Shown piece by piece: positions 3,489 through 5,251 of a DNA stretch of 35,352 nt. The stretch is from Desulfobacterales bacterium. GTDB taxonomy: Bacteria > Desulfobacterota > Desulfobacteria > Desulfobacterales > Desulfosalsimonadaceae. Made by a program: the position numbers and the translations under genes. The stretch's first letter is position 1. Every line of letters begins with the position of its first letter. The notes below the pieces were generated by a model. It saw nothing but the letters and a program-made list of their open reading frames with translations, had not been told where the DNA came from and searched no databases. Location of the stretch: contig JAGXLR010000010.1 of the NCBI GenBank assembly GCA_018334555.1, forward strand, positions 1-35,352, given 5' to 3'.

Positions 3489-4001
3489 CTATGAGGTTTC
3501 CTTACATGCCTCCAAGATTTCGTCCACCCGCGATACATTCATCTTGCCGTACACTTTGTCATTAACCACCACTACGGGCGCCAGTGCACATGAACCAAAG
3601 CAAGCGATGGTTTCTATCGAATATTCGAAATCAGGGGTCGTTTCACCCGCCTTGATACCCAGTCGTTCTTCCACCTTCTGAAGGATCTCGGCCCCGCCGC
3701 GCACATAGCAGGCGGTGCCCCGGCATACCTTAATAACGTTTCTTCCGAGGGGCACGAGCTTAAACTGGGCATAGAAAGTGGCCACACCAAATATGGTGCT
3801 CTCCGGAATGTGCGTGAATTTCGCTATTTTTTTCATCGCCGGCTCCGGCAGGTAGCCGAATTTCTGTTGCGTTTTTTGCAGGATGGGGATCAACTCATCC
3901 TTGCCCCCTTTAAACAAGGAGAAGACATCGGCTGTCTGGCTCTCGATGTATTCCTCTTGAAGTCCTGATTGCGGATCCTGAACGGTTTCAGTCGTGACCA
4001 T
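3489..4001 (-). CDS. NuoE/HydC-like [2Fe-2S] subunit
   Basis: This thioredoxin-like [2Fe-2S] protein of 170 residues is the small electron-transfer partner of the NuoF-like subunit. The four cluster cysteines are visible as VCRGTAC and IACFGSC, the spacing typical of the NuoE family, and the helical N-terminal part (LIPILQKTQQKFGYLP) is also typical. It is the first gene of the formate dehydrogenase operon: a GAGGAGG site precedes the ATG by about 6 bases, and only 16 bases separate its stop from the next start. Given the formate dehydrogenase downstream, it most likely belongs to that complex and not to complex I. Confidence 0.93.
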   Translation of the reverse strand: MVTTETVQDPQSGLQEEYIESQTADVFSLFKGGKDELIPILQKTQQKFGYLPEPAMKKIAKFTHIPESTIFGVATFYAQFKLVPLGRNVIKVCRGTACYVRGGAEILQKVEERLGIKAGETTPDFEYSIETIACFGSCALAPVVVVNDKVYGKMNVSRVDEILEACKETS

Positions 4002-4462: not shown

Positions 4463-4491
4463 TTGACTTTAACGTTAAATAAATGTATTCA
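4463..4491 (+). promoter_or_regulatory. Predicted sigma-70 promoter of the riboswitch transcript
   Basis: TTGACT (4463-4468) and TATTCA (4486-4491) are separated by 17 bases. The start would fall near 4498, about 35 bases before the riboswitch. The fit in position and direction with the downstream aptamer supports it. Confidence 0.6.
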
Positions 4492-4532
4492 AAAGTTACA
4501 CTGCGGAATGGTGTTTATGTTTTTGAATACCG

Positions 4533-4622
4533 TTTAGAAACCGAGAATCAGAAAAAGCCAAAGCCGCCGTGAGGTGGTGACGGAAAGCCACGGGTCTTAC
4601 GAAGACAGCCGGGTTGCCTAAA
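4533..4622 (+). promoter_or_regulatory. GEMM-I (cyclic di-GMP) riboswitch aptamer
   Basis: The GEMM-I core can be followed by eye. The outer stem pairs TTTAG/AACC (4533-4542) with GGTT/CTAAA (4612-4622). GCCAAA is followed by a 6-bp stem (4563-4568 with 4573-4578) capped by a GTGA tetraloop of the GNRA class. Then come GACGGAAAGCC, a second stem GTCTT-ACG-AAGAC, and AGCCGGGTTGCC. Against the Vibrio Vc2 aptamer, the base aligned with G20 is G (4557), which favours c-di-GMP over the A20-bearing cyclic AMP-GMP class. The G21-C46 pair of Vc2 is here C-G, a compensatory change. The element lies directly upstream of a small secreted-protein gene. Confidence 0.88.
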
Positions 4623-4641
4623 GGGGCGGCCCGGCTTTTTT
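4607..4641 (+). terminator. Intrinsic terminator overlapping the riboswitch 3' half
   Basis: AGCCGGGTTGCC (4607-4618) pairs with GGCGGCCCGGCT (4625-4636), a 12-bp stem with two G-U pairs and a 6-base loop, running into six T. The 5' arm is the same sequence the aptamer needs for its ligand-binding AGC and its closing stem. Terminator and ligand-bound aptamer therefore exclude each other, which predicts that c-di-GMP turns the gene on. Confidence 0.85.
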
Positions 4642-4701
4642 ATTGAGGGCCAAAAACGGCAGAAACGAGGGGTAAACCAAAGACAAAAAAGGGGGGGCGT
4701 A

Positions 4702-5148
4702 ATGAAGAAAACATTAATCATTTTAGCAATCATTGGTGTGTGCGTGGCTTTGTCATCCGGTCCGGTTTTCGGGGATTCCTGGCTGCAAGGCAAGAAGTAT
4801 GGAATATTCAATATATTGGGTATCCAGGCGGACCATACCTATCATTGCGCGAGCAGTAGCTGCTGGTCATGGACCGGCGGCGAGTCCGGCGGCTCTTATA
4901 TTTCTTACTCCGGCGGTTACGGCGATTACGGTGATGCAAGATGCACATCGACGAACTGGGGGTGCCGTTTTATATATGCTGTTCAGGGGGTTTGCCACCA
5001 GGAGGCCAACCGCGGGTTGTATACAAACGGCAGGGATATTTCCAGGGGCGGCGTCGGCGGGTATTGGCTGACCGGGGCTGTCTTCGGAACCTACGGTGAA
5101 TGGTCGTCCTGGACCGCGTGCAAGACCGCCTGCTGGCTGTGGTGGTAA
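4702..5148 (+). CDS. Small secreted Cys/Trp-rich protein under riboswitch control, family unknown
   Basis: A 148-residue protein with a clear signal peptide: a KK start, a hydrophobic stretch, and likely cleavage after VFG (residue 24). The mature part is short and rich in Gly, Tyr and Trp, and has seven cysteines (49, 54, 81, 88, 98, 140, 144), suggesting a disulfide-stabilised extracellular or periplasmic fold. It holds a Cys-His pair in QGVCHQEANR and ends in WLWW. I do not recognise the family. The start follows an AGGGGGGG run. It is the only gene between the riboswitch and the terminator at 5199-5251, so it is the direct target of c-di-GMP. That context suggests a role in surface attachment, motility-to-biofilm change or the extracellular matrix, but this is inference. 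Confidence 0.85.
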   Translation: MKKTLIILAIIGVCVALSSGPVFGDSWLQGKKYGIFNILGIQADHTYHCASSSCWSWTGGESGGSYISYSGGYGDYGDARCTSTNWGCRFIYAVQGVCHQEANRGLYTNGRDISRGGVGGYWLTGAVFGTYGEWSSWTACKTACWLWW

Positions 5149-5198: not shown

Positions 5199-5251
5199 AA
5201 AAAAAGCCCTTTTGCATAAATACATCGATGTTTATCGAAAAGGGCTTTTTT
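5199..5251. terminator. Long hairpin terminator, possibly bidirectional
   Basis: AAAAAAGCCCTTTT (5199-5212) pairs with AAAAGGGCTTTTTT (5238-5251), and the arms continue with minor mismatches around the palindrome ACATCGATGT. A T-run ends the stem on both strands. It closes the riboswitch transcript. The following stretch to 5342 shows no other feature. Confidence 0.8.

Follow-up and report, generated by a model that had tools for sequence, protein, structure and literature searches.

The leader at positions 4463–4701 of the window (the whole stretch of 35,352 nucleotides analysed, contig JAGXLR010000010.1 of the Desulfobacterales assembly GCA_018334555.1) raises the question of which second messenger its RNA would sense, and whether the ligand would switch the following gene on or off. 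We consider it very probable that the leader belongs to the c-di-GMP-I clan and is an ON riboswitch acting on transcription, built on a Geobacter-type scaffold (C21-G46 and no 11-nt tetraloop receptor) but carrying G20. The features on which this reading is based are collected in Table 1.

The identity of the aptamer was assessed with the Rfam covariance models. At gathering thresholds the segment 4548–4622 was the sole match in the whole window, and it was recognized by RF03167 (c-di-GMP-I-GGC; 70.3 bits, E 7e-15, cut-off 59) as well as by RF01051 (c-di-GMP-I; 66.8 bits, cut-off 35), both of which belong to the c-di-GMP-I (GEMM-I) clan, CL00126. The aptamer of the c-di-GMP class proposed in the initial annotation thus passes the GEMM-I covariance check, and the two sequence details given with it hold as well: the position-20 equivalent is a G, and the 21-46 pair is a true compensatory swap, fixed in 22/22 aligned leaders. 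The site shares with RF01051 the P2/P3 architecture, G20, A47, C92 and the GNRA loop, but differs from it by the swapped pair and by a P3 that lacks the 11-nt tetraloop receptor. The receptor-less P3, with CGGGUC...GACAGCC, is common to the site and to RF03167, the top-scoring model, whereas the G that this model conserves at position 47 is an A here. P1 is weak at this aptamer (G4551-C4618 and A4550-U4619, followed by a C-A mismatch). The ligand-contact letters G20, A47 and C92 are all present, as G4557, A4584 and C4617. The last of these was counted via alignment to the Geobacter aptamers, in which the corresponding C75 opens the final GCC; the C of the AGC at 4607–4609 was discarded as the C92 site by comparison with the pilM numbering. 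The initial annotation had rightly put the ligand-binding C inside the 5' arm of the terminator, but in that AGC rather than at C4617. The misplacement leaves the ON logic unchanged; C4617 still lies within the terminator arm.

Table 1. Features of the riboswitch leader and its target gene (window positions).
Feature	Position	Strand	Evidence
Putative promoter: TTGACT 4463–4468, 17-nt spacer, TATTCA 4486–4491 (weak -10)	4463–4491	+	read from sequence, tentative
c-di-GMP-I (GEMM-I) aptamer	4548–4622	+	RF03167 and RF01051 matches
G, position-20 equivalent, ligand-contacting	4557	+	Rfam alignment
21-46 pair C4558-G4583, swapped relative to G-C in both Rfam consensus sequences	4558–4583	+	
Inner pair (22-45) C4559-G4582	within 4558–4583	+	
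P2 hairpin, 4563–4568 with 4573–4578; GNRA loop GUGA 4569–4572	4563–4578	+	
A, equivalent of A47, which sits between the two guanines of the ligand; RF03167 consensus G	4584	+	
P3 helix, 4586–4589 and 4591–4596 with 4604–4606 and 4609–4615	4586–4615	+	RF03167 match, covariation
Intrinsic terminator hairpin, 13 bp, 4607–4619 with 4624–4636, loop 4620–4623	4607–4636	+	fold, scan, covariation, own-arm test
C, equivalent of C92 and pilM C75, Watson-Crick ligand partner	4617	+	aligned to Geobacter aptamers
Terminator U-run, T4636–T4641	4636–4641	+	sequence and terminator scan
Predicted regulated gene, 148-aa secreted Gly/Cys/Trp-rich protein, signal peptide-like N-terminus	4702–5148	+	
Inverted repeat resembling a terminator, downstream of the gene (AAAAAAGCCCTTTT...AAAAGGGCTTTTTT)	5203–5250	+	read from sequence

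The 5' arm of the terminator consists of the 3' strand of P3 (4609–4615), the junction nucleotide G4616, C4617 and the 3' strand of P1 (4618–4619), and in the terminator fold C4617 pairs with G4626. Aptamer and terminator therefore exclude each other: the hairpin reuses the P3/P1 3' strands together with the ligand-binding cytosine. The sharing of the 3' arm had been claimed before and is conserved by covariation (see below); the stem, given then as 12 bp with its arm at 4607–4618, is corrected to 13 bp and an arm of 4607–4619. For the aptamer helices by themselves the calculated free energy was −23.7 kcal/mol, or −29.0 kcal/mol when a short upper hairpin was included; for the terminator it was −41.8 kcal/mol. 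The terminator is thus favoured by ∼13 kcal/mol on energy alone, so that switching must be kinetic and decided during transcription. On folding the growing transcript, the aptamer helices were kept until 4627–4630, the terminator took over at 4631 and was complete at 4636. A terminator belonging to a preceding gene on the + strand was discounted, as the upstream gene (3489–4001) lies on the − strand.

At this site the hairpin alone is moderately beyond chance, with a fold z of −3.15 and its energy reached in 210/5000 dinucleotide shuffles of the downstream DNA (4%). Far stronger evidence comes from the comparison of related leaders. For 54 leaders with a shared arm, pairing with the own downstream arm averaged −21.4 kcal/mol, versus −18.2 kcal/mol with permuted arms; none of 5000 permutations reached the real value, nor did any of 2000 when one leader per genome was used. 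A covariation alignment was made of 22 leaders, all from the same bacterial family. The aptamer pairs of P2 and P3 were held in 96.8% of the cells, with 9 pairs changed on both sides and 62 double changes. All six pairs of P2 covary on both sides, and the ten pairs of P3 are formed in 97.3% of the cells, columns 41 and 42 varying in step with 109 and 108, respectively. The lower terminator stem is paired in 96.6% of the cells, with 16 double changes, and 0/500 shuffles reached the covariation of the terminator columns. Column 108 forms U-A or C-G with column 42 in the aptamer and A-U, G-C or G-U with column 135 in the terminator; column 109 likewise covaries with 41 in the aptamer and with 134 in the terminator. 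Read from the alignment, this three-way covariation is the mark of selection on both of two alternative folds. The own-arm test and the terminator covariation make the hairpin firm, even though it is only moderate by the single-site statistics.

The direction of the switch was deduced from this anatomy, that is, from the arm common to aptamer and terminator. The aptamer could form while RNA polymerase passes about 4619–4627. Bound between G4557, A4584 and C4617, c-di-GMP would hold the 3' strand of P3/P1, and the polymerase would read through into the gene for the 148-aa secreted protein. Without ligand, 4624–4636 would invade the P3/P1 3' strand and G4626 would capture C4617, building the 13-bp hairpin and leading to termination at about 4641. 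The same arrangement is found in the pilM riboswitch of Geobacter metallireducens, an ON switch whose terminator captures the ligand cytosine (C75-G102), so that cGAMP blocks termination (PMC9262584). In both, the terminator takes as its 5' arm the 3' strand of the aptamer, with the cytosine that forms the Watson-Crick contact to the ligand; pilM differs in sensing cGAMP and in its target gene. The mechanism is thus not new, having already been worked out for pilM, and the present site adds an example of a known design. An OFF switch was rejected, as no separate antiterminator was seen and the two folds are mutually exclusive. The Cd1 c-di-GMP-I riboswitch of Clostridioides difficile, with a homologous aptamer and transcriptional control as here, differs in being such an OFF switch, in which the terminator can form alongside the aptamer and the competing element is a separate antiterminator (PMC9262584). 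It had been stated initially that ligand binding must block termination; the ON direction does follow from the anatomy, both folds are conserved and pilM has the same design, but "must" is too strong and ON is a prediction. The 13-bp stem, its advantage of 13 kcal/mol and the weak P1 would also suit a degenerate or constitutive leader, in which the aptamer folds but is always overridden by the very stable terminator, so that attenuation is independent of the ligand; Bc1 of B. thuringiensis provides a precedent (PMC11218506). We regard this as quite unlikely, since relatives and paralogues with similarly strong terminators have kept the pocket and helices, and since pilM does switch with this same design.

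The preferred reading of a ligand-controlled ON switch leaves the choice of ligand to be made. G20, A47 and C92 are the canonical letters for c-di-GMP. All 12 GGDEF domains found in the genome carry the canonical Asp, and none has the Ser that replaces it in Hypr (cGAMP-type) enzymes (PMC6456294); the draft genome is 94.9% complete, which means that a Hypr enzyme could have been missed. Given these three letters and the lack of a Hypr-type GGDEF domain among those found, c-di-GMP is the likely ligand, much likelier than cGAMP. The same ON switch could have 3',3'-cGAMP as its natural ligand, or respond to both, as in the GEMM-Ib switches of Geobacter with the C21-G46 scaffold. The cGAMP-type leaders of Geobacter indeed have C21-G46 and a shared terminator arm, so that scaffold and terminator layout match. 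Yet position 20 is G4557, where A would be expected of GEMM-Ib (cGAMP), all 12 GGDEF domains found have Asp where a cGAMP-making Hypr enzyme of the host would have Ser, and pair 22-45 is C-G here versus U-G in the Geobacter set, so that this alternative has little probability. The Geobacter relatives (A20, U22-G45) were collected by a pattern that fixes A20, the letter of the Gm0970 aptamer. More improbable still is that the site is a "GGC" variant in the sense of RF03167, with another, putative ligand preference. RF03167 does score 3.5 bits above RF01051, but its conserved G at the 47 equivalent is A4584 here, and G47 occurred in none of 117 aptamers sampled from the phylum. This G47 probably gives the variant its name; if GGC stands for G20/G47/C92, the site is G20/A47/C92. 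For want of the model's G at position 47 we do not assign the site to that variant.

The 117 aptamers of the phylum sample were drawn from RF03167 matches and are hence biased towards that model; 114 of them have G20 and 78 have C21-G46. A shared-arm terminator was present in 59/78 C21-G46 aptamers versus 3/34 with G21-C46 (shuffled downstream DNA gives one in 10% and 6%, respectively), and a differently defined first count yielded 55/78 versus 5/34; the sequences are related, so a Fisher value for this association is not a clean probability. Judged by these samples, neither the 21-46 swap nor the shared-arm design is special to the site; both occur commonly in this phylum, and also in Geobacter. 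Tentatively, and with somewhat more doubt than confidence, we suggest that C21-G46 with the shared-arm ON platform is one old lineage across the phylum, in which substitution at position 20 (with 22-45) converted the switch from one of the two ligands, c-di-GMP and cGAMP, to the other, and that the present site senses c-di-GMP and is related to the cGAMP switches of Geobacter. A possible evolutionary interest is that one platform lineage seems to serve both ligands. As a natural counterpart with G20 to the cGAMP switches of Geobacter, the site would allow the evolution of ligand choice to be tested on an unchanged expression platform. Two aptamers from other families of the order (L087 and L139) combine A20 with C21-G46; among the part of the accompanying GGDEF domains that was readable by pattern, none had the Hypr Ser (L168 has Asn).

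By prediction, the switch places an uncharacterised secreted protein under the influence of c-di-GMP. Searches of Pfam, NCBIfam and the PDB with the 148-aa protein returned no useful relative, and AlphaFold2 run with 10 sequences gave a pLDDT of 39. Among 59 neighbours, a further 12 genomes proved to encode relatives, every one of them within the same bacterial family; seven Cys and seven Trp are invariant among the relatives, and the protein carries a GVCHQExNRGLY motif. The aptamer and shared terminator are kept upstream of 8/10 of the target-gene relatives with readable upstream DNA, the exceptions being L153 and L155, the latter the second copy of a tandem pair. The repeat after the gene makes the transcript probably monocistronic; it was not listed by the terminator scan, which was limited to short loops. 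The putative promoter, from which the transcription start would be placed, was likewise not listed by the automatic scan. Between it and the aptamer, the 5' leader contains an inverted repeat at 4485–4529 (GTATTCAAAA...TTTTTGAATAC). Upstream of seven target relatives (L147, L149, L150, L151, L153, L154 and L155) a promoter block recurs (GGTTTTTCGAAC..AAAATCAGG.TTTCCCTGATTGACTT), which persists even in the aptamer-less L153 and L155, and several of the upstream regions also bear a palindrome like TGTACACTGTTTACA. The block and palindrome suggest a second, protein-based control of the target relatives.

The genome contains eight such aptamers, seven of them with the shared terminator. This adds, for a little-studied lineage of the Desulfobacterota, a well-supported predicted c-di-GMP ON regulon comprising seven similar switches within a single genome. 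Downstream of the other C21-G46 switches are genes for two secreted proteins, one of the endonuclease/exonuclease/phosphatase family and one of the FG-GAP/Lcl_C type, for a response-regulator protein, for a small Cys-rich protein, and for an OpuAC-type binding protein, after which come histidine-kinase-like and cyclase-like ORFs; one switch is close to the end of a contig. In the paralogous leaders L001, L003, L004, L005 and L007, sigma-70-like promoters (TTGACA/TTGACT) end a few bases from the aptamer, and the leader in the window is ∼50 nt longer than these. The eighth aptamer (L008 1501–1590, G000:C59) has the canonical G21-C46 and lacks a shared terminator. It is followed by CACCTCCTAAGG, which is complementary to TTAGGAGG, the ribosome-binding site of a secreted fibronectin/MopE-like protein, and this aptamer probably controls translation.
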